A DNA stretch of 64,000 bases, from assembly GCA_964017065.1 (NCBI GenBank), contig OZ024792.1, positions 876,092-940,091 on the forward strand, in the 5' to 3' direction. Positions 25,823 to 63,415 of the stretch are shown in pieces (the stretch's first letter is position 1; every line of letters begins with the position of its first letter). The notes under the pieces were generated by a model. The model made no database searches and had not been told where the DNA came from. It saw nothing but the letters and a program-made list of their open reading frames with translations. The DNA is from Haliclona indistincta (taxonomy: Eukaryota > Porifera > Demospongiae > Haplosclerida > Chalinidae). A program made the translations under genes and the position numbers.

Positions 25823-26022
25823 NNNNNNNNNNNNNNNNNNNNNNNNNNNNNNNNNNNNNNNNNNNNNNNNNNNNNNNNNNNNNNNNNNNNNNNNNNNNNN
25901 NNNNNNNNNNNNNNNNNNNNNNNNNNNNNNNNNNNNNNNNNNNNNNNNNNNNNNNNNNNNNNNNNNNNNNNNNNNNNNNNNNNNNNNNNNNNNNNNNNNN
26001 NNNNNNNNNNNNNNNNNNNNNN
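25823..26022. other. Assembly gap, 200 N
   Basis: Exactly 200 N with TTAGCAACGG(A) on both sides, so the gap probably covers a tandem array of that unit; 200 may be a placeholder size. Confidence 0.95.
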
Positions 26023-41351: not shown

Positions 41352-43929
41352 TCAGTGGTGAGGCGGGTCCCTGTTGTATCTCCCGTTCTTCATTGAGTTA
41401 GCGGTAGATGGTGGATGGTAGTTGACTGCTCTGTCATATTCTTCAGCAAAGTGAGGGTGGACTGCTCTGTTTTCCTCCGGGCCTATGTTGGAGTAGTCAG
41501 GATCTTCGTAATCGTTATCAGTTCCATCTAAGGTATTGTAGACGGGAGCGTTCGAATCTTCTAGGGTACTGTAGACCGCTGTGACTGGTAGGTTGTTGGG
41601 TTGTGAGTGGTCTAGCTTGCCAAAGGGAGAGCTGGTTGGTGGAGGTGGTGAGGTATCGTGTTGTAGACAGCTGTAGCCATTACCCTGAGGGATGCTGGGG
41701 TCTTCTTTACCATAGTGATGGTTGACCATATGTTGTGTGGGAGTGTTCAAGGATGAGTACTCATTCCGACCACCATTAGCAGGTCTTGATGGTGCAGGGT
41801 AACCTGATCTCTGAAGGGTTAAAACAGGCTCTGCATAGTCTTCAGGTGAGTCTTCAACATTCTTTTGAAATGACTTCATCTCAGGTTTAGCTGTGTAAGC
41901 CCCTTGGACAGTATTCACTTCACTACAGAACACAATACACTATATATAATACATGCACATAGCATTGGCAGTGCCTAGCTATTAGGTATTTGTCACCTGA
42001 TCCAGTGACAAGCAACCTGTGGTACAGGGAATGTTTGATTACATGATCATAGGTACACATAGCTGGCTGACCATTCAGCTTGGTTTACACTATGACACAG
42101 TGTCTACAGGTTAAGCTAACTTTGGTTGTAGGCGGTACTTTCAAGTCTTCTGAAGGATATTGTAGAGGAAACAGGGATTAGACCTGACCACATGATATAC
42201 TCATAGTCTACTTTAGTATAGTATATCCCTTATTGTATCTATACATGTGTACAGTCAGCTATTGGATACACTATTATAGCATTGTTGTATCTATACAGTC
42301 AGATATTCCAAACATATTGTATCTCTATTGCATACACTGTACCATATTGTATCTATACAAGGCTCTGTTCTATACAGTATGTAGTTACACTTACTTTAAT
42401 CCATACGCTTCATTGTCTAATCCACCTTCTGCAAAAAAAACGGACAAAATGATACAGTGCATGCAATAGAGATACAATATGTTTGGAATATCTGACTGGA
42501 ATATCTGACATCAATACCAACATGACCATACCTGACCCCCTTACTAGCTAAGCTGTGTTGCTAAGAGCTATTTAATTCCCTGGAGAATTTCATGGACAAT
42601 GCGCTTTCAGATAATGTCATTACAGGCACACCCTAAAGCTTACACACCAGGCAGTAGTGATAAATACACTGATGATGACCTTATCTATACAATAATTATA
42701 GTAAACCAATACTGTCTGTGATTAAAGTATTATCAGTGTTTGTGGTTTGACAGATGGGCACATCAGGACATACCTTTCTGACCAGTCTGGTTCTTCTTCA
42801 AAAGCATCACAATAATCACCACAATCAGGATGACGATGGTGATGAGGAAGATGCCCCCTATGGAGGCTATCACATAGAGGAATGGTGATACCTGCTCCTC
42901 CTGGGAGCCTAGTTGGGGAGTGGTGGAGGGAGAACTTGCAGCTGGAGGTAGTGCAGAGGTTGTGACAGTTACTGCATTATCAATGGTCACTGATGTGGGA
43001 ATATCAGCTACTGCAGTGACTGATGGTAGAATAGTTACTGCACTATCAATATTAGTTACTGCACTATTGGTAGTAGTTACGGCACTATTGGTAGTAGTTA
43101 CTGCACTATCGGTAGTAGTTACTGCACTATCGATACTAGTTACTGCACTATCAGTAGTGATCGATGGTAGAATACTAGTTACCGATATCGTCTGTTCGCT
43201 GGTGAGTGATGCAGTGTTTGCTGTAGGGTGTGTGGTTGTTGATGGTTCAATGAAGGAGGTCGACACTTGTGTCATGGTGCTACTGCTGGGAGCAAGGACT
43301 GGTAAAGTAGGTGTGGTCGGTGGAGCAACAGGTTGGTCAGGCAGATCAGCACATGTCCGATTATCTACAAATTGTAACTGAGCAATGCCAGCACAAGCTG
43401 ATCCACTGTATTCCTCAGGAGCCAGTAGTGTGAACACATTGCTCCTCATCAGAGGCTGGTTAGGATCAGCAGTTGTGTTGATCAACTGACACCAGTACTT
43501 GCCTAGTAGACTAGGACTGTAGGCTCTGTTGAAGAATGCTGTGTTATGATATCGTGAAAACCAATCCGTGTTGCTCTGCATTAGATCAGGATCACCTAGT
43601 CCCAAGTTCTCTACTGTTCCAGCTGTGTTCTCTCTGAACCATCTCACTTTAAACTCATCAGTTACCACATCTCTTCTTCTTATAGTGCACTCCAAAGAGA
43701 TCGCGATCGATACTGTATTATCACTCGTTTGGTACGGATTGCATCCATTCACTATAGTCGATGGAGGCTGCCTTAAGTACTCAAAACTGCACGTTGAGCC
43801 TGGAGGAGATGGAATAAAGTCGCACAGAGATGTCAATAAAATAATAGAACACAGCATTTCCGTACGCGTCATACCTGCTACGCTGCTCAGCAGTGCACAC
43901 ATCGTGAGGATGACTCCTAGTAGTGCCAT
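41352..43929 (-). CDS. IgR1: single-Ig transmembrane receptor with ITAM tail
   Basis: Exons 43929-43875 (leader MALLGVILTMCALLSSVAG), 43799-42774, 42428-42395 and 41922-41352; 1686 nt, 561 aa. The Ig domain is V-like (CSFEYLRQPPS, core Trp in VRWFREN, second Cys in GKYWCQ). A Thr/Ser stalk repeats SAVTTT/SAVTNI. One TM (VIASIGGIFLITIVILIVV) is followed by KKNQTGQKG. The tail has YSSL, YSCL, YSTL, YNTL and YSNI; YSTLEDSNAPVYNTL (41573-41529) fits the ITAM rule YxxL-x(6-8)-YxxL. An ITAM would recruit Syk-type tandem-SH2 kinases after phosphorylation. It lacks ITIM-consensus sites, unlike IgR2-4. Ligand unknown. Confidence 0.85.
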
Positions 43930-45139
43930 CACTAGCTGCTGCGATCTCGATACTGCTGTTTGCTGAAATAACATTCCTGTGATGAGTGATGTTGACCCAG
44001 TGACCCCTCCCCTAGGTACGGTCAATATTCGTAATTTCCCCTCACGCGGAGTCCTGTCATAATTCAAGGTCAAAGTGCAAACAGCATTATGAGCTGCAGG
44101 TTATGATCCATGATGATGACATTCATTGTGTTTTATAAATTGTATATATTACTTGAGCAGAGTATAAATTTATTTTCTCTTGGCTGATAAATTCAAACTG
44201 GTGTAGTGGTGTTAGCAGAACAATACTGATTGTAATAAACAGCTCACTACTGAACTGCTTCATTATAGGCAGTGGGATTGTTACGATCAATAACTTCATG
44301 ATAACACAAAGAGCTGTTTTGATACAAATTGAAGGTTGAGTGACACTGCTGTGCAATCCTGTACCAGAACGCGAAAATGAAAGTATCATTGATGGACATT
44401 CTCACAGTTGTGATTATCTGAACATGATTAGTACTTGTTGTCAGCATTATGTTGTAATAGAGATTCACTGCAGTATAATATCATGTAGCAATTTCACATC
44501 ATTGTTGACATATCTGGGACTGTACTATTCAGGACAGCTAGAACTGGTTGATGTCTGATATCTTAGTGAGTGATATGTTTGTACTGGATCAGTCACTGCT
44601 CATCAAATTGTACGACAACTTAGTCCTAAATCGAAAGTGACTCAAGGTGTTGAATCGATAGTTTATATTATACTGCCGTCAACATTGACTCGTCAGCCAC
44701 TAACCATGCTATTATTAACAAGTCTCTACATGTACTCAATAGTGCAATGATGGTAAGATTTTTAATGATTTTTAAAAGTCAAAATTGATGACAATGTTTC
44801 CTAGCAGTGCAGCAGCATACTATTAATCAACTAAATGTAACTGTATATCCATGTATTATTACTTTTCAAAAGATATTGTAGCTATATAATACACATGCTG
44901 CTCTAAAACACTGCTTGATTAATATTGTATCGCTCTGGTACTGCACAATAATTTAATACTAAAATAAGATGCTCTACACCAGCTTGAAGCACTACTGGGC
45001 ATTGAAACCATAAAAATGTGTGCATGCTAAATACACACGGGTCTACATGTACAAAAATAACTGTATTATAGAGAAAGTGTGAAATGCACATTCACAAATA
45101 ATTATTGTTGATTTGTTATCATCCCATGTTCTCATTTGT
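43930..45139. other. Duplicated intergenic spacer (copy 1)
   Basis: From ~44090 the sequence recurs at ~47690 (GAGCTGCAGGTTATGATCCA onward) through ~48600, so the receptor duplications included the flank. No gene. Confidence 0.7.
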
Positions 45140-46814
45140 TCAATAGTACAGTTGCTGGTCTGTAGAGGTCATGTCACTAGGAGCTGGAGGGACTCCAGGA
45201 TGCTGGAGAGAGCTGTACTCCTGCTCACCATAGTCTGCTGCTAGCTTGTCACGACCCATAGTGTTGGAAGATGTGTTGAGGGAGCTGTACTGATCATCTG
45301 CTGTCAGCTCCATGGGTAGGGTGTCACTAGCTGCCTGATTGTAACCCAACTTGCTATAGGCAGTATGTCCTCCAGTTGCAGTATTCTCTAAGTGTGAGGA
45401 CTGACTGTTACTGACTCCAGTAGCATCATACATTGGGCCATCAAGCAGCATAGGTGTAGCAATGGGATCCAGAGGAGGACCTGATGTCATGGTGTCAGTC
45501 AGGCAGTTATATTCACTGTTTATGATAATATAATTTCCGCCTTCTTTGGTTACACTCATTGATCTATAGAAATTAATCAACTTGCTCTTTGTTGATTTTA
45601 AATGTGACATTTACTTTTTTAAGCCATCTGGTTGGTCGTATATGACAGACGGTGGTTGTGAGGTAGTGTTGTTTGACCTACGGCGTTGTTGAAGTGCACG
45701 TCAGTTTAAATCAATCATTGCTCAGGATAAACTCACTGTATGTTGATGTTGTCTTTTGTACAATTTTTGTAGCTCACTTTTTTGTTGCTATAACCTACTA
45801 CGTATATTTATTAACAATACATCATTATACTGTATGCATGTGTTCTTGCCTGTGTGTGTCAGTTGCTTTTCATGTTTCGTCATCTTCTTTCTCTTCATCA
45901 CTATCAATATCATGATGAGCATTGAGAAGATGATCAGCACTAGTGCTACACCAGCTGACACTCCTGCTATAATGGGTGTGATAGACAGCTGTACTACAGT
46001 AACCGATCCACTAGGCAATGGAGGGGGAGTGGTGGCCATGTGAATAACTGCATCAGCAAATATTGTGTGATTTACATTAGTTTGATCTGTTGTGCTATAT
46101 CGAGTAAAAATAAGAGTGTTGTCAGATGATTTCATAGTTAATGTCTGGATTACAGACGTGGTTGTGCTGGTTAGGAGCAGAGTTGTAATAGTTTGGACAG
46201 GCTGGAAGACTAGTGGTGTTGTCTGACCAGGCTGGCTCTTTGGTAGATCAGCACATGTCTGATTATCTATGGTCAGTAATTGATTAGTGCAAGTTGGTCC
46301 ACTGTAGTCTCCAGGAGCCAGTAGTGTGAACACATTGCTCCTCATCAGAGGCTGGTCAGGATCAGCAGTTGTGTTGATCACCTGACACCAGTACTTGCCT
46401 AGTAGACTAGGACTGTAGGCCTGGTTACGAAATGCTGTGTTATGATATCTTGACAACCAATCCGTGCTGCTCAGGAATTGATCAGGATCACCTAGTCCCA
46501 GGTCCTCTACTGCTCCAGCTGTGTTCTCTCTGAACCATCTCACTTCAAACTCATCAGTTACCATATCTCTTCTTCTTATAATACACTCTAATGAGATCAA
46601 TGCTCTATTAGTACCCGTTTGGTAGGGATTACATCCATTCAATGTAGTTGATGGAGGCTGTTTTATATACTCGAAACTGCACGTTGAGCCTGGAGATGGC
46701 ATTCATAAAAAAACAGTCGTACAGATATGTCCACAAGAACAGCAGTATTTCCGTCATACCTGCTACGCTGCTCAGCAGTGCACACATCGTGAGGATGACT
46801 CCTAGTAGTGCCAT
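45140..46814 (-). CDS. IgR2: single-Ig receptor with ITIM-like/YxxL tail
   Basis: Exons 46814-46760, 46689-45850, 45797-45737, 45677-45615, 45563-45140; 1443 nt, 480 aa. Leader identical to IgR1 (MALLGVILTMCALLSSVAG). One Ig domain (CSFEYIKQPPS, VRWFREN, GKYWCQ), a stalk, then TM (IIAGVSAGVALVLIIFSML) and a basic MKRKKMTKHEKQ. The tail has VIYDQP (Crk-type YDxP), SEYNCL (fits the ITIM rule), AYSKL, QYSSL and EYSSL. Compared with IgR3, one tyrosine is lost (NSQSSHLEN versus NNQYSLLEN) and the end is shortened (QQLYY). The donor after exon 2 is GC, not GT (CACACAG|GCAAGA). Confidence 0.82.
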
Positions 46815-46892
46815 AACTAGCTTCTGCGGTCTCGATACTGCTGCTCGGTGAAATATATTCGTAGTGACTATTTTTACGGTACCGTAAAATAA

Positions 46893-47240
46893 GGCCACAT
46901 AAAATTAATAGTTAGATTCTCATCCTCTAGGCTTCAGATTTTCAATGAGGCGGGAGGCAATTTATAATTTAAATTTATTTTACACTGTTAATTTTATATC
47001 AAAAACAACATGAATATACAGTCACCATCTATCAGCGCTGCGTGATCAGCGACAATACACCCATACCAGGGCTTTACAACTCGACAGTGAGCACGAATCT
47101 GGACGACAACAAACACCATCCTCGCGATATAAATAATTAACCCCTTGTTGTCTATAAAACCTCCCCAAAATTTTTGGTCAAGAGCATTAAAAAATTGATG
47201 CGGGCGGGGATGAGAATCTAACTATTAAGTTTATGTGGCC
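46893..47240. mobile_element. MITE, ~350 bp
   Basis: Inverted ends GGCCACATAAAATTAATAGT and ACTATTAAGTTTATGTGGCC, continuing into TAGATTCTCATCC, ~33 bp with one or two mismatches. CTATTTTTACGG occurs just outside both ends. Inserted upstream of the IgR2 leader exon. Confidence 0.7.
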
Positions 47241-48638
47241 TAACCCCCCTGCTATTTTTACGGCATATGATTAGGCTGTGTTCATGGTAATGAGTTTCCC
47301 AGAGTTTTTGTTTCTTCGAAGAGCTTAAGGTTTTCTCTGGGTTTTCCCTTGGTTAGCATTGGGCCTTGCTAACCATAAATTTGATGCATATTAGGCAGGC
47401 CCCAGCTCATGATGTGCAAATGTGTGCTCGTGTTGTCTTGTGTCGTCAATGAGAAGGTTGTGGCGTGAATAGCAGGCCTTGAACCGCAAAGAGTCATTCA
47501 AGAGTTTGGTAGTGGGTGTGTGCTTGCATGCATGCAAGGTGTGCATGTTCGGGAGATGAGACATTCCTGTGATGTGTGATGTTGACCCAGTGACCCCTCC
47601 CCTAGGGCAATAATCGTAATTTCCCCTCAGCACAGAGTCCTGTAATACATCACTTTACATGAAGGTCAAAGTGCAATCGTATAATTATTAGGAGCTGCAG
47701 GTTATGATCCATGATGATGTCATTTATTGTGTTGTATAAATTGCTGTATTTATTTCTTGAGCAGATTATAAACAATTTTTTTCTCTTGGCTGATAAATTC
47801 ATACTGGTGTAGTGGTGTTATACTGATTGTAATAAACAGCTCACTACTGATCTGCTTCATTATAGGCAGTGGGATTGTTATGATCAACAACTTCATGATA
47901 ACACAAAGAGTCGATACAGATTGAAGGTTGAGTGTCACTGTTGCGCAATCCTGTACCAGAACGCAAAAATGAAACTGTCATTGATGGACATTCTCACAGT
48001 TGTAATTATCTGACCATGATTAGTATTTGTTGTCAACACATGTTGCAATAGAGATTCACTGCAGTATAATATCATGTAGCAGTTTCACAGCATTGTTGAC
48101 ATATCCAGGACTGTACTATTCAGGACAGCTAGGACTGGTTGATGTGAGTGATATGTTTGTCCTGGATCAGTCACTGCTCATCAAATTGTACGACAACTTA
48201 GTCTATATCGAAAGTGACTCAAGGTGTTGAATCGATAGTTTATATTATACTGCCGTCAACATTGACTTGTCAACCACAATCATGCTATCATTAACAAGTC
48301 ACTACATGTACTCAATAGTGCAATGATGGTAAGATTTTTAATGATTTAAAAGTCAAATGACAATGTTGCCTAGCAGTACAGCACCATGCTATATATTCAG
48401 CTACATGTAACTGTATCCATGTATTGTTACTTTTAACAAAACATAATAATAATATAATACTACACATGTCGCTATAGCTCTGATACAGTACAATGACTAA
48501 ACAAGAATCTAGTAGATGCTCCGCACCAGCTTGAAGCACTACTGGGTATGGAAACCATATTATGTGTGCATGCATGCTAAATACACACTGGTCTTACAAA
48601 AATAACTGTGTATATAAAAGTAAAATTGATTTTTGTTA
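47241..48638. other. Duplicated intergenic spacer (copy 2)
   Basis: From ~47560 to ~48640 it repeats the IgR1/IgR2 spacer (43970-45130) with small indels. No gene. Confidence 0.7.
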
Positions 48639-50343
48639 TCATGATTTGTTCAATACACTGTACTGTTGCTGGTCTGCAGAGGTCATGTCACTAGGAGCTG
48701 GAGGGACTCCAGGATGCTGGAGAGAGCTGTACTCCTGCTCACCATAGCCTGCTGCTAGTTTGTCACGACCCATAGTGTTGGACGATGTGTTGAGGGAGCT
48801 GTACTGATCATCTGCTGTCAGCTCCATGGGTGGGGTGTTGGTAGCTGCCTGATTGTAACCCAACTTGCTATACGCACTGTCTGCTCCAGTTGCAGCATTT
48901 TCCAGGAGAGAGTACTGATTGTTACTGACTCCAGTAGCATCATACATTGGGTCATCAAATAGCACAGGTGCAGCTGAACCAGGACCAGGAGGACCTGATG
49001 TTGTGGCATCAGTCAGGCAGCTGTATTCACTGTTTATGATGTTTCCACCTTCTTTGGTTACACTCATTGATCTATATAGAAACTAGCTCTTAGCTGATTT
49101 TAAATGTGACATTTTACCTTTTTAAGTCATCTGGTTGGTCATATATGACAGACGGTGGTTGTGATGTAGTGTTGTTTGACCTATGGTATATCCACAAGTA
49201 AGAGTTTGCTTATACATAAACTGTAAATAGTCTGAGTACACTCACTGAATTTTGACAGTGTCCTCAGGCTCTGAACAAATATTGTAACTCACTGCATTGT
49301 TGCTATAACTTCCTACACAGATAATGCATGTATCAATACATACATCAGTATTTTATTATCCTTGCCTGTGTGTGTCTGTTGCTTTTCATGTTTCATCATC
49401 TTCTTTTTCTTCATCACTATCAATATCATGACAAGCGTTGAGAAGATGATCAGTATCAGTACTATTACTACACCAGCTGTCACTCCTGCTACAATGGGTG
49501 TGATAGACAGCTGTACTACAGTAACTGATCCACTAGGCGATGGAGGGGAGGTGGTGGTCATGTGATTAACTACATCAGCGAATATTGTGTGATTTACATT
49601 AGTTTGATCTGTTGTACTATATGGAGTGAACATAAGAGTGTTGTCAGATGATTTCATAGTTAATGTCTGGACTACTGATGTGGTTGTGCTGGTTAGGAGC
49701 AGAGTTGTAATAGGCTGGAAGACTGGTGGTGTTGGCTGACCAGGCAGCTGGCTCTTAGTTAGATCAGCACATGTTTGATTATCAACAAATTGTGACTGAG
49801 TGGTGGTAGTTGTGCAAGTTGCTCCACTGTAGTTCCCAGGAGCCAGTAGTGTGAACACATTGCTCCTCATCAGAGGCTGGTCAGGATCAGCAGTTGTGTT
49901 GATCACCTGACACCAGTACTTGCCTAGTAGACTAGTACTGTAGGGTTGGGTACGAAATGCTGAGTCGTGATATCTTGAAAACCAATCCATGCCCAGCATT
50001 TCATTAGGTTCACCTAGTCCCAGGTCCTCTACTGTTCCAGTTGTGTTCTCTCTGAACCATCTCACTTCAAACTCATCATTTACCATAGCTCTTCTTCTTA
50101 TAGTACATTCCAAAAAGGTCAGTACTTTGTTATTATATAAACTCGTTTGGTACGGATCACATCCATCCAGTGTAGCTGATGGAGGCTGTCTTATATACTC
50201 GAAACTGCAGTCTGTCTCTGTGCCTGATGGGAGCCGAGGTGAAAAGGTCGTGCATAAAATTAATGAGTATACCAGCATAAAGCCATACCTGTCACGATAC
50301 TCAGCAGTGCACACACCACTAAGGTGGCTCCTAGTACTGCCAT
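48639..50343 (-). CDS. IgR3: single-Ig receptor with six YxxL motifs
   Basis: Exons 50343-50289, 50223-49366, 49312-49246, 49180-49118, 49071-48639; 1476 nt, 491 aa. Leader MAVLGATLVVCALLSIVT, Ig domain (CSFEYIRQPPS, VRWFREN, GKYWCQ), TM (IVAGVTAGVVIVLILIIFS), basic MKKKKMMKHEKQ. The tail is the fullest of the set: IYDQP, SEYSCL, MYDAT, QYSLL, SAYSKL, QYSSL, EYSSL, QYSVL. SEYSCL and SAYSKL match [S/I/V/L]xYxx[L/I/V], the ITIM rule for SHP phosphatase recruitment. No pair has classic ITAM spacing (YSLL to YSKL is 10). The exon 2 donor is GC. Confidence 0.85.
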
Positions 50344-50690
50344 CACTGACTAGCTTCTGTGAAAAGTGTTGTCTCGATACTGCTTCCTCTGCCTGACCCC
50401 TTGGCGTTCGCCGAGTCTTACAATACTCAAGTACTGCACCGCGGGCAATACAAAATACTAAATTTTACGTTTTCTGGGGCACTGCTCTAGAATCTGGGCA
50501 TGGAAACCATAATAATATTATTATGTGTGCATACTAAATACACACTGGTGTCGTACAAAAATAACTGTATCTAGCCTCGTACCCAGGCCATAGCTACATA
50601 GGTACGAGGCTAAACTATATCGAGAAAATGTAAATGCACATTCACAAATTGTTGATTTTGTTATCATCCCATGTTCTCATTTGTTCAATA
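50344..50690. other. Spacer IgR3-IgR4
   Basis: Includes a short inverted repeat, TAGCCTCGTACC and GGTACGAGGCTA (~50575-50613), also seen once at ~17200. No gene. Confidence 0.5.
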
Positions 50691-50886
50691 CACTGTACTG
50701 TTGCTGGTCTGCAGAGGTCATGTCACTAGGAGCTGGAGGGACTCCTGCAGGATGCTGGAGAGAGCTGTACTCCTGCTCACCATAGCCTGCTGCTAGCTTG
50801 TCACGACCCATGGTGTTGGACTATGCATTGAGGGAGCTATACTGATCATCTGCAGTCCGTTCCATGGGTAGGGTGTTAGTAGCTGC
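50690..50886 (-). pseudogene. Untranslated former tail of IgR4
   Basis: Matches the distal tail of IgR3 (QYSSL, GEQEYSSLQH region) but lies beyond the premature stop and contains another stop in frame (LNA then TAG). Confidence 0.75.
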
Positions 50887-54488
<3,602 letters not shown>

Positions 54489-54755
54489 GGCCAGTTTAAG
54501 CAGAACTAGTGACAGAAAGTTTAGACATACGGCTGTTTATATAGACTGTTTAATAACTGTCTGCCCCCACCCACCATACTGACAATGTCAACAAATCAAT
54601 ATCCTGTTAAGGTGGCCGGTACAGGAATTAGGTACAATAAAATTTAGTCATAAGAAAATACAGCAAAGATACAAATTTTTATTAGTTAAGATAAGTCTTT
54701 AAGTCATAACTACTTTATAATTACATTTTATGAATTCACTGGAATGTCAGCTTTA

Positions 54756-57700
54756 CTATAATTTTTGAAGTGAGTGTCTGCTAGTGCTGGTTGTCTGGAC
54801 TGCTGTTTTTGTCTCTGGTGTCTCGTAATCAAGTGGTGTCTTGATACAAACTGGTGTCTCATAATCTGCTTGATGTCTGGAAAATGGTGTTGCATAAACA
54901 GGTAGTTGTTGTGCTGCCTCAGGATCTAATGGCTGCTGCTGGCTACCATAACTATTCTCAGTTGTTATAGTGTTCCTTGAAGACCTGTATACAAATAAAC
55001 ACAGCCAAATACAATCAATCAACACATTAATGTAAATACTACAATAATACTAGCATAAACTCACTTATTCTTACTAATGTCCACTATATTGGTATAATTA
55101 TTCATTACTACATACAATATACACCAAAGACTGTAAAATTAATAAACAGTCACATAATTATTTTGTATTGTCATATGCAGTATCAGTCTCTCTCTTGATA
55201 GGGTCCACTATAGAGAACATCTTGCCCTCCACCTCCACTGAAGGTGGTCCGCTCCTCCCAGTGGGTGTGGTGTACACACTGGTGTAGTCAGTGGTAACAG
55301 TGTCCAGTGGTTGGTAGAGTGCAGCTGCAGGGAGAGTCACTGCTGGTATACTGAACAGCATCATAGGTGGCTGTGACAGGACGTGATGTAGCCTTGTCAC
55401 TGGTGCTTTCATCTATTGTCATTAAAAACAATCATGCATTCATGACAAACTATAAGTACCTTGTTCCCTCATTTTTGTCACATCAGTTTCAGTGTTATGT
55501 TCACTCTCTATATCACTATACAAACCAATACATTATCACAATGCACTGAATGTATCTCAGCTACTCACTGCAGTGCTGTTTGATGGTCTCTAGTTCGAGA
55601 ATCCTTCTCTGTAGTGAAAATTTTAATATCTGCTGTTAAATTGAATCAGCAACTTTCTTACTTTGTCTCCATTTAACCCTTTAACCCCTATTGTTGCCAT
55701 TTGGCAACATACATACTTCAGACACCATAACTTTATCAACTAGGCACCGAAGGTGCTTATGCCTCGGTGGAATGTTATGCATACATGCCTGTCTGACTAA
55801 ATACGTTGAACTGAAATACACAAGCAGTTATGAAAGTCTGCTGTTGCTAGTTGAACACTATGTTAGTGGCTGACAACTTATAAAAATATCCACAACCACA
55901 ACTATCCACCATTCCATAAACACAGCAACTGAAGATGCATGCATACAGGATTTCTGTACAGCAGTTGCTTTAGTTATGCAATCAGAAGCCAATCAGTGCT
56001 AACCACAATTCAACTGGGCGTGTCTACAGTGTTTAGCGCAGCACGCTCGGCGCAGCAGTCATACCACGAGCGAGATAACTTCCATAGCTTGCTTAGTTGC
56101 TTACACGATTTCTCTGGACCTGCGCTGCTATCCTGTAGTAAAATTTGAACCTATCAGCTTCTAGGCAGTCAACTGTGGACAGCTTTGCCATTGGAGAAGT
56201 CCAGATCGCCAGCAACGGTATTAACAAAGTAAGCCGGCAAATCACGCCATAACTCGAGAACGAAGCTTCGTGTACAAATTTCAAATGTTGAAAAGCGAGA
56301 TAATATCGAGTTCTACTTGCATTGCTAGTTTCAGGGCTCGGCGTTCAGCGTGCGCCGCAAAACTGAAGTAACAGACGGAAAAATAGCACCTAAGGTGCAG
56401 ATGCCTCGGTGAAACGACACTATATTCACAAACACAACTGAGCCACCATTCCACAAACACAGCAACTGCAGATGCATGTATACAGGATTTCTGTACAATG
56501 CAGTGCTTTAGTTATGCAATCAGAAGCCAATCAGTGTTAACCACAATTCAACTGGGCGTGTCTACAGTGTTTAGCACACGAGCGAGATAGCTTCCATAGC
56601 TTGCTTACACAATTTCTCTGGACCTGCGCTGCTATCCTGTAATAAAATTCTAACCTATAAGCTTCTAGGCAGTCAACTGTGGACAGCTTTGCCTTTGGAA
56701 GTAAGCAAATCACGCCATATTGATAACTCGAGAACGAAGCTTCGTATACAAGTTTCAAACGATGAAAAGCGAGATATTATCGAACTATACCTGCATTGCA
56801 AGTTTCAGAGCTTACCTTTTTGCGTGCGTCGCAGAAATGGCGTAACAGACAGAAAAATAGCACCATAGGTGCTGATGCCTCGGTGGATTGACATTATATC
56901 CACAAAAAAACACAACTATCCACCATTCCACAAACACAGCAACTGCAGATGCATGCATACAGGATTTCTGTACCGCAGTCACAATGCAGTGTTTTAGTTA
57001 TGCAATCAGAAGCCAATCATGCAGTGCTGACCACAATTCCACTGGGCGTGTCTACAATGTTGGTTACAGCACACGCATACCACGAGCGAGATAGCTTCCA
57101 TAGCTTGCTTACACGATTTCTCTGGACCTGCGCTGCTATCCTGTAGTAAAATTCTAACCTATCAGCTTCTAGGCAGTCAACTGTGGACAGCTTTGCCTTT
57201 GGAGAAGTCCAGATCGCCAGCAACGGTAAACAAAGTAAGCAAATCACGCCATAACTCGCGAACGAAGCTTTAGAACCAAATTTCTATACATGCAGATCCG
57301 AGTAAATATCGAGTTCTGCTTGTGTTGCTTGTTTCAGCGCTTAGTTTTCTGTGAGCGACGAGAAATGCTTGCAACAGACAGAAAAATAGCACCTAAGGTG
57401 CAGATGCCTCGGTGGAATGACACTATCCACCATTCCACAAACACAGCAACTGCAGATGCATGTCTACAGGAATTCTGTACAGCAATCACAATGCAGTGCT
57501 TTAGTTATGCAATCAGAAGCCAATCAGTGCTAACCACAAATAAACTGGGCGTGTCTACAGTGTTCAGCACAGCAACGCATTCCACGAGCGAGATAGCTTC
57601 CATAGCTTGCTTACACGATTTCTCTGGACCTGCGCTGCTATCCTGTAGTAAATTCTAACCTATCAGCTTGTAGGCAGTCAACTGTGGACAGTGTTGCTTG

Positions 57701-59172
57701 TTTCAGCGCTTAGTTTTTAGTGAGCGACGAGAAATGCATAACTCGCGAACGAAGCTTTAGAACCAAATTTTTACACATGCAGATCCGAGTAAATATCGAG
57801 TTCTGCTTGTGTTGCTTGTTTCAGCGATTAGTTTTCAGTGAGCGACGAGAAATGCTCGCAACAGACAGACAGCACGATTACAGTATGCCTCGTGGCTCCG
57901 CCCACCGAGGCATAATGACAGACAGCACCAGAGGAGGTTGGCCACGCGTCATACTTACACGCACGATCACATGACATTGAAATAGCAAAGAGCCCCGCCC
58001 ACCGATGCTGCAGCAGAGCTGCTGGCAGTCCAGCTACAGTCAGTGCTGTGCGAATGGAGACCAAATGTACACGAGGCTGTCCACGAGTGATGTAGAACTG
58101 CTGCTAGCAGTGATTGAATGCTGTAGCCTTGACTAGCGGTAGGCTGTGCTCAGTATGCTGTACGACTGTTATAAGCGGTCCTACAATAATGTTGGCAAGC
58201 TCCAATGCTGTTTCAAATGCTCACAGCGTTCCTTCGGCGCTCATGGTCACCGTAGACCATCTTCTGCTTCTTCCCAATGTTTCACAGTGTGGCAACCAAA
58301 ACGGCCAAGCCGAGCCATGCCTCCTGAAATACGACCTTCTTTTGGTCGGTTAACAACTTCTTGAACGCTTGCAAACAGTTTCGCTCTGTCCTGCGCCTCC
58401 AACTAGTAGCAAATCAGCAAATTCATATAATATGAATAAATTCATGAGGTTCCAAAAGGTTCCAAAAATCCATTAATTTAATATTATTCATGTTTGAATT
58501 ATTGTTATACACGTCCGGCCTCGGCCAGAGCCTCGGCTGCCTGGGCGGTCACATGAACTCGGCCTACGCATTGCATACGTAGAAATGATGATCGATGACG
58601 CGTGGCCAACCTCCTCTGAGACAGCACGATTACCGTATGCCTCGTGGCTCCGCCCTCGGCACAATGAAGCACCTAAGGTGCAGATGCCTCGGTGGAATGA
58701 CATTATATCCACAAACACAACTATCCACCATTCCACAAACACAGCAACTGCAGATGCATGCATACAAGATTTCTGTACAGCAATCACAATTCAGTGCTTT
58801 AGTTATGCAATCAGAAGCCAATCAGTGCTGACCACAATTCAACTGGGCGTGTCTACAATGTTCATTACAGCACACGCATACCACGAGCGAGATAGCTTCC
58901 ATAGCTTGCTTACACGATTTCTCTGAACCTGCGCTGCTATCCTGTAGTAAAGTCTAACCTACCAGCTTCCAGCCAGTCAACTGTGGACAGCTTTGCCTTT
59001 GGAGAAGTCCAGATAGCCAGCAACGGTAAACAAAGTAAGCAAACCGCGCCATAACTCTAGAACAAAGCTTTGCATGGAACTTTCGCTAGTTCACAACCGA
59101 GATAATATTGAGTTCTACCTGCAGTGCAAGTTTCAGAGCTTACCTTCCAGCGTGCGCAGCAAAAATGGTGTA

Positions 59173-59209
<37 letters not shown>

Positions 59210-62200
59210 ACGACAGACAACGCGATTACAGTATGCCTCGTGGCTCCGCCCACCGAGGCATAATGACTGACTGAGTCCTAGGGGTGAGCACATTATTCCT
59301 CAAATTTTGCCCATTATTCTTTCCGGAATTTCTCAAAATTTTCACCCATTATTCTCATACATTCTGCCCAAAATTCTTGCTATTATTCTTGAAAAAATTG
59401 CTGTTTTTGATCACAGCGCAATAACAATGATGATTGTGCATATGACTGATGTGCACTGTTGATGATAGGTGATGATAATAATGATGGTGATGATGTACTG
59501 TTGGTGATTAAGTGATTTAGTAACTGTTGTTGATTAAATATAAATGAATTAGCAGCCAGCTGATTAAATGAACTAGCGACTATTGTACTGCAGCATCATT
59601 GACACTTCTACGTAGTCTTGTAGTGCACTAGTCTGCCTATCACCAAATGAGTTTGCAAGAAGAGAAAATACTCTCTCCGCAGCAGCAGAGGAGGGTTGCA
59701 CCAATAGGACCTTCCGAGCTAATGAGGACCAGTGTGGCAAAGAAGCACTGTTGTTTTTCCACCATTTCAAAGGGCAATACTCATCACTAATATTTGCCAC
59801 CTTGGCAATATAAGAAGGCAGCTCGGATTTAAGGTTGTCAAGCATTGTGCTGGTTACAAACGGAACAGAACAAAGTGAGTCCACGTCATTAGCAGTAGGC
59901 ATCATCTCTGCTACCTTCTTGGGATCAACAAGCCTTGCAGACTTAAATGCCTTAAGAGGACCACACAAACTGGCACTTAGTTGTTTCGTGAAGTACTCAA
60001 TGCCTGGTTGGGTACAACTCAAAGCATAGTTGACTAGTTGCTGCCTAGCATTTGCATTATCACCAGAGAGCTGGTTAGCTATTGCATCTACATTTGGGTG
60101 ATGGTTGTTACTAATTGAGGCCTGCAACATACTAATTACCTCATAACACTCTAAAGCAAGTGGACCGTCGCCCTCCAAACGGTACGTTGCTTTGACAAAG
60201 GGTTCCCCTATATCAATTGTCGCAGCTAGCTCTAACTGTAATAGACCTTTGTTCTGGGGAACACTGAGCACAGCAAGCATCTTCGCTGTTGTAGCAGTAC
60301 CAACATCTTGCTCAGAAGCCAAAGTCAGATATGGTTCAATCTCACCAAACTTCACCATCAATTCCTTCATTACCTCCCATTTGCTCCACCAGCGAGTTGC
60401 AGAGTAACTAGGCATAGATTTTCCAGTCTGCTCCTTCCAGAGAAGCCTAGCCTTTGGACTATGACTGAAGTGCTTCACCAAACTAGACACAAACTCGTTG
60501 AGAATAGGTGTTTTGAATTTGTCACCAACATGGTCAATGGTGTGCGAGAAACAGCCGATGTCAAGTACTGTGGGATACACAATTTTTACTGTTCTCATCG
60601 CAACACCATTAACAGAAGCCCTGTCTCTCATTGATGCTAGGAGACGATCAGATGCAATGCTATAATTGGTAGAAAGCACTGAAATAAGCTCACGGGCAAT
60701 CTCCTCTCCGGTCATACTTTTTGCAAGCGTTTGCATTCGAAGAAGACGCTGCACCACTACCCATTCACTAGTTACAAAACGAACCACTATAACCATCGCT
60801 TCTCCTAAGCGAGTGGTTCCATCGAAAATTATGGAAACATCCTCATCCTCGATTTCCTTTTTGATTTTTGCTTGCTCCTCAGCCAAAATAAATGGTATGA
60901 GGTCAGACATGTGACGTCTATCCGTTAAGCTATACGCTGATTCCTCCAAAATATCTCTAAAGTGGCCTAACTTCTGTAAAGGAATCCCAGCACGGAGAAA
61001 TGCTGTCATCACCTTGACCCTGTACACCCGGTGTTGCATGGGAAGAGACTCACCTTTAGGATGAGAGTCTGTGTCATGTTTCTTTAGAGCTTGTGCAATA
61101 TCAATTTCTCGAACCTCCTTTTGCTCACGTTTCTTCTTCCTGTCTTGATGCTTTTTTGACGAGATATGATATTTTAACACACTACGTTTAGTGCTTAACT
61201 CTTCTCTACATGCTTGGCAGAAAAGCTTTCCCGCAGAAACGCACAAACATTCGTTACGAAACTCACTTACTCGTTGTGCAGGGGTAACTGTTTTGGGATC
61301 GAAGTTTCCACGGCCTTTGGACGGTCGCTTTCCTTTTGGTGGGTAGTTGCGATGAATAGAACGTTTTCTCCCGATTTCTGCTGGCTGGGGTGCACGCAAA
61401 CGACTCAATAGTGATGATGACTGTGTTTGAGGGCCTGTCTCAGACGAGGATGTTATTTCGGTACTAGCGAGCAACGTAGCGTCTGCCTCACTATCTGATG
61501 ATGGTGGTGATGACTCCTCGGATGAGAGAGTCACTGTCACTGAAGTCTCAGCAGCCTCTGCGGGCTCTGCCATACGTATACTGTACTGCTACACGTGTGG
61601 GGCGTGGCTTAAATTTTTCCCCAATTATTCTCAAATTATTCTATTCTCACATCAGCCCATTATTCTCAAAATTATTCCGGAATATTGTGCGCACCCCTAT
61701 GACTGACTGACTGACTGACTGACAAACAAACGAACTACTGTATGCCTCGTGGCTCCGCCCACCGAGGCATAACTAGAGTTCTAATGAACACATACCCGTG
61801 CGCTGAGCTAAGAGCTAAACACAACTACTCCACGTTACAGCGGCTAGTCCGCTTCAATACATGTGAGACTGAGTGAGGACATCGACATGTGAGACTGAGT
61901 GAGGACGTCGACAGTGAGACTGAGTGAGGACGTCGACTGTTGGGTGACACACCCACAATACCGTAAAGTGCTCTTACAAGGGACACGTAGCTTTAGAAAG
62001 CCATGGATTAGCCGCTCGAGCAAGGCTTGCCAGCACAGAAAACGTCTTCATAGGACTATAAATTCAGTGAAGAAGCTGCAGAGAGTGTTTTCGTGGAGAT
62101 GTTCGAGCGGTGAGACGTAAACAAGCGTGTTTTTTGACGACACACACACATATACACAGACGGACACAAACGCATAACCCTGGCGCATACTGCGCACGGG

Positions 62201-63415
62201 TAAAAAGTGTTAAATATTCCGAAATTAAGCTAAATTGAAGAATACAAATAACCGCCCAAAATCCAGTGGTTTTCGGCGCGCCTCCTGCGCTAAACGCTAT
62301 GGCGACGGCATTTTCTATGGCTTCAGTGCAAATTTCACAACATTTTATGAGAAACAAAATGACCGCCAAGAAAATTTGGACATTTTATGGCTTCAGGGTG
62401 CTCGGAAACACATTTTTGTGCATTCTCTATGATCTGGGCTACATTTTGCGCTCACCAAAACCACTGCTATTTGTGTGTACTTTTCAGTATCCAGCCCCAA
62501 AGTACTAACTTTGAGCAAAATTTGACGAGGTCGTTGCACTTAATCGGCTTCACTTTCGAAGTGGGAGGAGCATATCGACTGACTTGAGTGTTGGCAATTG
62601 CAGCTACTCACTGGCGTAAAAGGACGCAAATTTGAGACCAGTAGCACAAAAGACACACGAGATATTCACGAAAGAAGTGGTCAGCATTTACGAGGTTAAA
62701 ATTTCAGTAAGATAATTTAGTAATTAAAGGGTTAATGACTATTATCACAATGACTCTTACCGCTAACAGACCAAATATTGCAATGACCACACCCATTACT
62801 GCTATAATTACTGAACTCAATTGCTGCTCATCACTAGCCTGAGTAGGTGTGGTTATAGGTGTGTGAGCATCCACTGACAATGAAGTTTGAGTGATTGTAG
62901 TAAAGATAGCAGCTGTTGTTGCTGTTTTTAAAATCTGTGATGTATGTGAAGTAGAGTGGTTTCAATTTGATTAGACAGATCAGCACATGTTATGTTTACT
63001 AATGGTTGGAGTCCAATACAAGTTGGTCCACTGTAGTTCTCAGGAGCCAGTAGTGTGAACACATTGCTCCTCATCAGAGGCTGGTCAGGATCAGCAGTTG
63101 TGTTGATCACCTGACACCAGTACTTGCCTAGTAGACTAGTACTGTAGGGCTGGTTGATAAACTTATTGTCATGATATCTCGATGACCGTTCAGTATTACT
63201 CAGTTGACTAACAGGATCACCTAGTCCCAGGCATTGTACTAATCCATCTGTGTTCTCTCTGAACCATTCAATAAAATAGTTGGTATTTACAGTAGAATGT
63301 CTCCTCACAAAACATTCTAATGATATTCGAACTATATTTTGGTGATCGTAGGGATTACAACCTTGTTGTGTGCTAGAGGGAGGCTGTGCCAGATACGCAA
63401 AGCTACAATTTTGAC
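54756..63415 (-). CDS. IgR5: single-Ig receptor, split by transposons, YxxP tail (tentative join)
   Basis: 63415-62762 encodes the Ig domain (CSFAYLAQPPS, IEWFRENT, GKYWCQ) and a TM (VIIAVMGVVIAIFGLLA), closest to IgR4, with a frameshift in the linker at a T4A5 run near 62927-62935. About 7 kb of transposons follow. Tail-type exons lie at 55608-55569, 55515-55460, 55412-55158, 55088-55067 and ~54976-54756. They show YTTP, YATP, YETP and YETP, i.e. YxxP motifs as bound by Crk/Nck-type SH2 domains, not YxxL. The 255-nt exon changes frame inside. The phase from the TM exon (0) does not match the first tail exon (needs 1), so at least one exon is missing or the join is wrong. The leader exon is not in the window. 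Possibly a decaying gene. Confidence 0.45.
55744..59270. repeat. Array of ~0.5-0.6 kb TIR repeat copies
   Basis: Five copies begin with a GCACC(T/G)AAGGTGC-like hairpin and ATGCCTCGGTGG at 55744, 56386, 56860, 57389 and 58669. Each carries ACTATCCACCATTCC, CAATCAGAAGCCAATCA, ACTGGGCGTGTCTAC and CTCTGGACCTGCGCTGC. CCACCGAGGCATAA, the inverse of the start, closes copies at ~57914 and ~59264. Non-coding; probably one transposon family inserted repeatedly or tandemly duplicated. Confidence 0.8.
59279..61699 (-). mobile_element. hAT-type DNA transposon, 2.4 kb
   Basis: Inverted ends TAGGGGTGAGCACATTATTC and GGAATATTGTGCGCACCCCTA, with further ATTATTCTC-type subterminal repeats on both sides. It sits in a GACTGACTGAC run at the end of a repeat copy. 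I find no clean 8-bp target duplication, perhaps because the target was repetitive. Confidence 0.75.
59573..61573 (-). CDS. hAT superfamily transposase, 666 aa, intact
   Basis: Single open frame. The N-terminus is Ser-rich and probably disordered. A zinc finger of BED/CGBP1 type follows at ~115-140 (LFCQACREEL, then KYHISSKKH). The RNase-H-like core has Asp in SIIFDGTTR, Asp in LLASMRDRASVNG, the conserved Trp pair in SATRWWSKW, and Glu in SSAAAERVFS. The C-terminal dimerisation block is CPLKWWKNN to SAAAERVFSLL. All expected landmarks of hAT transposases are present and no stop interrupts them. It cuts and pastes elements with matching ends. The 39-bp-TIR element at 38.7 kb has different ends, so it is not an obvious partner. 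Confidence 0.88.
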   Translation of the reverse strand: MAEPAEAAETSVTVTLSSEESSPPSSDSEADATLLASTEITSSSETGPQTQSSSLLSRLRAPQPAEIGRKRSIHRNYPPKGKRPSKGRGNFDPKTVTPAQRVSEFRNECLCVSAGKLFCQACREELSTKRSVLKYHISSKKHQDRKKKREQKEVREIDIAQALKKHDTDSHPKGESLPMQHRVYRVKVMTAFLRAGIPLQKLGHFRDILEESAYSLTDRRHMSDLIPFILAEEQAKIKKEIEDEDVSIIFDGTTRLGEAMVIVVRFVTSEWVVVQRLLRMQTLAKSMTGEEIARELISVLSTNYSIASDRLLASMRDRASVNGVAMRTVKIVYPTVLDIGCFSHTIDHVGDKFKTPILNEFVSSLVKHFSHSPKARLLWKEQTGKSMPSYSATRWWSKWEVMKELMVKFGEIEPYLTLASEQDVGTATTAKMLAVLSVPQNKGLLQLELAATIDIGEPFVKATYRLEGDGPLALECYEVISMLQASISNNHHPNVDAIANQLSGDNANARQQLVNYALSCTQPGIEYFTKQLSASLCGPLKAFKSARLVDPKKVAEMMPTANDVDSLCSVPFVTSTMLDNLKSELPSYIAKVANISDEYCPLKWWKNNSASLPHWSSLARKVLLVQPSSAAAERVFSLLANSFGDRQTSALQDYVEVSMMLQYNSR
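61700..62761. other. Remaining repeat sequence, unassigned
   Basis: 61740-61772 is another CCACCGAGGCATAA end. 61861-61937 holds ~26-bp tandem copies of GTGAGACTGAGTGAGGAC. The rest looks like transposon debris with no gene. Confidence 0.5.

Follow-up and report, generated by a model that had tools for sequence, protein, structure and literature searches.

The window analysed here is a stretch of 64,000 nucleotides on contig OZ024792.1 (C10:876092-940091); the genome searched comprises 144 Mb in 46 contigs. The window carries a cluster of putative immunoglobulin (Ig) receptor genes, designated IgR1 to IgR5, with the following features (window coordinates; TM, transmembrane).

41352-43929, minus strand: IgR1 gene; open frame across all four exons, GT/AG sites, matching phases
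43929-43875 (leader), 43799-42774 (Ig domain, stalk, TM), 42428-42395 and 41922-41352 (class I tail), minus strand: IgR1 exons
45140-46814, minus strand: IgR2 gene; matching phases, GC donor after the TM exon, tail conservation
46814-46760, 46689-45850, 45797-45737, 45677-45615 (VIYDQP) and 45563-45140 (class II tail), minus strand: IgR2 exons
46208-46687, minus strand: IgR2 V-type Ig domain (AlphaFold2 model)
48639-50343, minus strand: IgR3 gene; exon phases, motif scan
50343-50289, 50217-49366, 49312-49246, 49180-49118 and 49071-48639 (class II tail), minus strand: IgR3 exons
50674-54488, minus strand: IgR4 gene; exon phases, class II tail with in-frame stop
54488-54416 (leader), 52156-51380, 51332-51272, 51226-51164 and 51109-50674, minus strand: IgR4 exons
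51690-52154, minus strand: IgR4 V-type Ig domain (AlphaFold2 model)
54759-55049, minus strand: second candidate tail exon, with YATP, YETP and YETP; linkage to IgR5 positional
55161-55412, minus strand: candidate class III tail exon (YQPLDTVTTDYTSVYTTP...); the nearest upstream Ig found is that of IgR5, linkage positional
62704-63415, minus strand: IgR5 Ig region and TM-like segment; broken or not understood

IgR1 to IgR4 are each predicted to have four or five exons with compatible phases on the minus strand. These encode a hydrophobic leader (assigned by eye), a single V-type Ig domain, a Ser/Thr-rich stalk, a TM segment followed by basic residues and a tyrosine-rich tail. The genes lie where an earlier sequence-only reading had placed them, and their exons join in frame at GT/AG junctions, with one GC donor 3' of the TM exon that is common to IgR2, IgR3 and IgR4. 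The predicted translations of IgR1, IgR2 and IgR3 are 562, 481 and 490 letters long, respectively (stop counted). A model of IgR2 to IgR4 with the small exon directly behind the TM exon was rejected: it loses the frame, which is kept by an intervening exon of 61-67 nt together with the upstream GC donor.

The sequence-only reading described five paralogues with a leader/Ig/TM layout. This holds for IgR1 to IgR4 (the IgR4 tail has an in-frame stop right after SAYSKLGYN and another further on), but not for IgR5. Because the IgR5 Ig frame closes upstream of the TM-like stretch, which is in a different frame, and a hAT-like transposase frame intervenes before the candidate tail exons, this gene is not intact as read. 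The YxxP motifs ascribed to IgR5 are present in the candidate exons, but their connection to the gene is putative. The minus strand at window 59573-61588 contains a 671-aa open frame with a match to the hAT C-terminal dimerisation domain (Pfam, E-value: 4.6e-12). Intron 1 of IgR4 contains a TTTC microsatellite of about 1 kb (window 52420-53390), and there is an assembly gap of 200 N at window 25823-26022.

The IgR ectodomain is supported as a V-type Ig domain by modelling. Two AlphaFold models (IgR2 and IgR4), evaluated by structure comparison, have a V-type Ig beta sandwich. The hallmarks of V-set domains are a B-strand Cys, a C-strand Trp and GxYxC in the F strand, and these residues are present in a 54-row alignment of the family (entropy 0 for Trp49 and Cys99, 0.2 for Cys33 and 0.1 for Gly95 and Tyr97). 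In an alignment of 112 relatives, PF00047 (ig) matches 31 members weakly (best E-value: 3.3e-4) and the Pfam V-set family matches seven (best E-value: 0.019). The five Ig frames of the window match no Pfam Ig family at E ≤ 1, and so none at the gathering score, while a PDB sequence search with IgR2 returned no Ig match (best E-value: 0.22, integrin). When the window ORFs were compared with Pfam, the receptor frames matched nothing but TM or low-complexity families, RIFIN among them, and those weakly. The RIFIN match (E-value: 1.4e-4 for IgR3, below its cut-off; 17 of the 112 relatives) was set aside as stalk/TM similarity. Compared with the vertebrate V-set domains of TCR, VH, PD-1 and CD147 Ig0, the IgR domain is only about 7-17% identical and, unlike them, has extra cysteines.

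The ITAM consensus is YxxL/I-x6-8-YxxL/I and the ITIM consensus is [SIVL]xYxx[LIV]. P values for tail motifs were derived from composition shuffles. As previously proposed, IgR1 has an ITAM (YSTL-x7-YNTL) and no strict ITIM. One match at spacing x6-8 occurs in 1.1% of shuffles (P = 0.011), and the two overlapping ITAM-like matches found at spacing x6-12 occur in 0.06%. The class II tail of IgR2 contains SEYNCL, TAYSKL, QYSSL and EYSSL, and that of IgR3 contains SEYSCL, YSLL-x10-YSKL, YSSL (twice) and YSVL. The ITIM-type sites claimed for IgR2 to IgR4 are indeed there (SEYxCL in all three, SAYSKL in IgR3 and IgR4), but in numbers barely above chance: strict ITIM counts in IgR1 to IgR4 are 0, 1, 2 and 2 (P = 1, 0.37, 0.048 and 0.017), and with P values of this size for IgR2, IgR3 and IgR4 the strict count alone is weak evidence. 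The enrichment of Yxx[LIV] in IgR1 to IgR4 (P = 0.0014-0.043) is firmer, and the real evidence among these sequence data is tail conservation. The claim that IgR2 to IgR4 lack an ITAM is correct at spacing 6-8 but not at 6-12, as the YSLL-x10-YSKL pair of IgR3 and IgR4 is accepted by the wide definition; this wide-spaced pair in a class II tail could serve as an ITAM.

At least four tail classes are present in the genome. Class I tails are ITAM-like and class II tails have several YxxL sites with a SEYxCL site, while class III tails carry YQPL/YTSV/YTTP and class IV tails YEVP/YSVV/YSSL/YSKx. Genome matches number three for class I (two full tails and one fragment), 14 for class II (some being pieces of a single exon), 49 for class III, the commonest (three being second pieces of one exon), and 18 for class IV. 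The second full class I gene has YSSV-x7-YNTL in place of the YxxL pair. The full class I tails, at C10:266417 and C10:917446, are the lowest-coordinate tail match in each of two separate clusters. More tyrosine-rich tails, outside the counts for the four classes, lie at C10:693-708 kb and 4.89-4.90 Mb.

Tails of relatives, drawn from ENA assemblies, include a set almost identical to the window and a set at about 60-75% identity that is probably from another species. In class I, YxxL-x7-YxxL is retained in 5/6 aligned tails, the sixth being YSSV-x7-YNTL. Among the five is a tail 99% identical to that in the window, which leaves three that are truly separate. The class II alignment contains 21 tails (IgR2 and IgR3 of the window and 19 matches nearest to IgR2). 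SEYxxL is found in 21/21, as are eight of the nine tyrosine columns. More distant class II tails on C10, outside this alignment, have AYSKL in five frames and SEYSLV in one. Five class II tails have a pN/pS of 0.53, which indicates only moderate constraint. The sequence-only reading depended on the tail tyrosines being kept in related species; in the relatives examined they mostly are, the exceptions being the ninth class II column (18/21), the class I DYAEP tyrosine (absent in P0123 and P0124) and one distant class II tail with SEYSIA.

The tandem cluster first described as five genes belongs to a far larger family. The IgR2 Ig exon has at least 120 matches in the genome, on C10, C2 and C8, and 76 among the matches listed span the domain (from query residue ≤10 to ≥150). 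Some matches are fragmentary or have internal stops, which may reflect run-on into introns, and some family copies may be broken. For comparison of heads and tails, 54 complete domains were taken from genomic DNA (most of C10:980-1062 kb was left out) and each was paired with the nearest downstream tail, so that tail assignment beyond the window is positional. Twelve of the 54 had no positional tail; IgR5, one of these, was then labelled class III, giving tree rows of 22 class III, 14 class IV, five class II, two class I and 11 without a label. A splice scan of 28 genes on C2 and C8 gave more candidate joins than could be told apart; in the 11 rows with a readable TM type, this agrees with the positional tail class in 10 and disagrees at C8:6501639. 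At C10:304267 a class III tail exon and, beyond it, a class II tail lie downstream of a single Ig exon; these may be alternative tails of one gene. At C10:702964-705981 a single 1006-aa open frame contains two family Ig domains split by long PSTTPV repeats.

Near-identical ectodomains are found on different tails. The leader exons of IgR1 and IgR2 are identical (55/55 nt), and their Ig exons are 87% identical over the first 450 nt versus 52% over the last 240 nt (stalk/TM), with tails of different classes. IgR3 and IgR4 have the reverse pattern (tail 95%, Ig 71%). The Ig domains of IgR4 and IgR5 are 89% identical, although it is class III tails that lie nearest IgR5. On a tree of the 54 domains, class III requires 18 changes (340/500 shuffles as low) and class IV 11 (84/500), whereas class II requires three (2/500) and is clustered. 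All five tail labels taken jointly are also clustered: they need 18 changes, where shuffled labels average 27.8 (0/200 as low). Labels track genomic clusters, with mixing inside clusters that chiefly involves classes III and IV. For 26 C2 domains, pS is 0.173 within class III, 0.176 within class IV and 0.168 between them, and among 28 C2 and C8 domains nine have a closest ectodomain that carries their own tail class, versus a shuffled mean of 13.6. As classes III and IV are unsorted on the tree, are equal in pS and often have the other tail on the nearest ectodomain, they share heads.

Further signs of ectodomain homogenisation, beside the equal pS across tail classes on C2, are found at the nucleotide level. 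Nine copies, which carry class I, II and III tails and come from two C10 clusters separated by about 600 kb, have an identical 93-nt haplotype; ten copies on C2 and C8 share another. These sequences are read most simply as products of gene conversion, with nucleotide-level constraint as the alternative. In P0003, from another assembly, an IgR1-type head and stalk is fused to an IgR2-type stalk and TM, though this chimera is possibly an assembly error.

The segment between strands F and G (31 codons), by this position the likely equivalent of the CDR3 loop, has a pS of 0.035 among 15 C10 domains, against 0.427 for codons 1-82. Among 26 C2 domains the corresponding values are 0.034 and 0.256, and when C2 is compared with C10 they are 0.192 and 0.578. 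A second block of low pS (about 0.04-0.14 within sets) covers codons 49-60. At the protein level no part of the domain varies less than the FG segment, which contains an NTT sequon; in antigen receptors, by contrast, the F-G loop is the most variable part of the V domain. Variable stretches of the IgR domain lie in its N-terminal part. One possible arrangement, put forward tentatively, is a genome-wide paired-receptor system with a single pool of V-type heads continually redistributed over at least four tails. The FG loop, with its NTT sequon, would be held near-invariant as a common docking or dimer surface, and diversification would fall on other stretches of the domain, chiefly at the N-terminus and between strand C and strand F. 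If true, the pattern would invert that of antigen receptors and would place integrated recognition of the ITAM/ITIM type in the earliest animals. The invariant FG loop suggests a particular structural question.

The host genome encodes tandem SH2 enzymes of both the Syk and SHP types. PF00017 (SH2) has 90 genome matches, counted by exon. The SHP-2-like gene, whose SH2 pair lies at C9:7649.4-7651.2 kb, is an open SH2-SH2-PTP frame of 581 aa that is most similar to PTPN11 (E-value: 7.8e-192). Two adjoining open frames with two SH2 matches each lie at C9:7650603-7653885, one of them being the intronless SHP-2-like protein. The Syk-like gene has two SH2 exons on C8 (tandem SH2 at C8:9494.4-9496.6 kb), with best matches to ZAP-70 and SYK (E-values: 1.1e-35 and 3.2e-39), and a downstream kinase exon whose best match is ZAP-70 (5.7e-16), with an EGFR chain (1.4e-15) second and SYK (7.3e-15) third; the SH2, SH2 and kinase exons are arranged in a row. 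Syk-family kinases have been published from sponges, including Amphimedon (PMC9601881).

The logic of paired receptors, as first proposed for this locus, is well supported by the gene sequences with respect to architecture: leaders and ectodomains are shared, TM segments and tails differ, classes III and IV mix, tail tyrosines are conserved, and Syk-like and SHP-2-like genes are present. The sign of each tail is a prediction from its motifs. The locus is probably part of a large type I receptor family in which related heads signal through different tails, with class I predicted to activate and class II to inhibit or modulate. In this model, unequal exchange and gene conversion would keep ectodomains similar across tail classes. 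Ligand binding would cluster the receptors and a Src-type kinase would phosphorylate the tail tyrosines. The class I tail would then recruit a tandem-SH2 Syk-like kinase, leading to activation, and the class II tail a SHP-2-like phosphatase or other SH2 proteins, leading to inhibition or modulation. Class III and IV tails might recruit other SH2 proteins, with no established sign for either class. Opposing signals from one kind of ligand would be integrated by the cell to recognise self tissue or microbes. The model presumes cellular splicing, phosphorylation, signalling partners, the sign of the signal and the ligand.

Alternatively, all tail classes could be positive or neutral scaffolds in a multi-adaptor adhesion or recognition family without opposition of activation and inhibition. 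The near-chance strict ITIM counts of IgR2 and IgR3 and the YSLL-x10-YSKL pair of IgR3 and IgR4 would fit such a family, as would the absence of ITIMs from the commonest class, with its YQPL/YTSV/YTTP sites in 49 matches. It is nevertheless unlikely, given that SEYxxL is kept in every aligned class II tail (though lost in some distant ones), that the genome encodes both SHP-2-like and Syk-like genes, and that heads mix while tail classes remain distinct. It is very unlikely that the cluster is mostly a decaying repeat family, whose similar heads and tails arose passively through tandem duplication and many of whose copies are pseudogenes. The stop in IgR4, the break in IgR5, the hAT-like element inside the cluster, and the fragments and internal stops (possibly intron run-on) in some genome matches point in that direction, but the frames of IgR1 to IgR3 are open with matched phases and tail tyrosines are kept in relatives.

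Allorecognition, in which germline-diverse receptors read self markers as is thought for Hydractinia Alr or for Botryllus FcoR with FF, is as much a use of the favoured explanation as a rival to it. The family is large and clustered, the N-terminal stretches of its V domain are variable, and its multi-tail logic resembles the descriptions of Alr and FcoR in PMC12065747. The diversity seen here, however, is among paralogues rather than alleles, and the same text cites the aggregation factor family as another sponge candidate; as the specific role of the IgR genes, allorecognition is rather doubtful.

The activating/inhibitory family favoured here resembles the CEACAM, Alr and FcoR systems in its anatomy. 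In frogs, the ligand domains of CEACAM paired receptors are kept alike by gene conversion (PMC5112662), and Siglec-11/16, CD300A/C and CEACAM1/3 are paired Ig receptors homogenised in the same way (PMC5112662, PMC5701461, PMC12447643). Like these vertebrate pairs, IgR genes combine similar ectodomains, different tails and ectodomain exchange; opposite sign is known for the vertebrate receptors. Unlike them, the IgR family has a single V-type domain, extended by a cysteine-bearing stretch of its own, has at least four tail classes and comes from a probable sponge. Hydractinia Alr is a clustered Ig family of 41 genes with V-set and I-set domains and ITAM/ITIM motifs (PMC12065747, PMC11999971), and is likened to the IgR family by anatomy as a clustered early-animal Ig family with such motifs. 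IgR ectodomain groups cut across tail classes. Botryllus FcoR comprises 53 clustered loci whose tails have ITIM, hemITAM or core YxxI/L/V motifs, and at oligomorphic loci motifs can be swapped by splicing (PMC12065747). FcoR is composed of V, sushi and two C2 domains, with an FF partner next to it, whereas an IgR gene encodes one Ig domain.

Sponge receptor tyrosine kinases and adhesion molecules with Ig-like domains are reported to rise after grafting (PMC2248247), and sponge Ig-TIR receptors have been described (PMC8242945). The IgR proteins would be membrane proteins with Ig-like domains like these, but the known sponge receptors are described as having kinase or TIR domains or an adhesion role, with no ITAM/ITIM tails mentioned in the available text (PMC2248247, PMC8242945). 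The literature searched, which was mostly outside subscription journals and was seen in part (including PMC11999971, PMC12065747, PMC2248247, PMC9505182 and PMC8242945), holds no mention of ITAM/ITIM Ig receptors in sponges; absence in print is unproven. Novelty is softened by earlier descriptions of ITAM/ITIM tails in Hydractinia Alr and of ITIM/hemITAM tails in Botryllus FcoR (PMC12065747). Should the tails have the signalling roles that their motifs suggest, opposing tyrosine-motif receptors with shared heads would date back to one of the earliest branches of animals or would have evolved there independently. The family would then offer a clustered, sequence-defined recognition candidate in an animal with poorly known immune and allorecognition receptors, and would test the generality of head mixing across tails in such systems.

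The silicatein active-site pattern has no match in the genome in either forward or reverse orientation, which introns or absence could account for. There are 39 homeodomain matches in the genome, seven of them at C2:15.07-15.15 Mb. Six homeodomains of this cluster were examined by eye and look NK-like, with one resembling Msx. A small homeobox set with an NK-like cluster is consistent with a sponge or another early branch, going by homeobox counts in other phyla.
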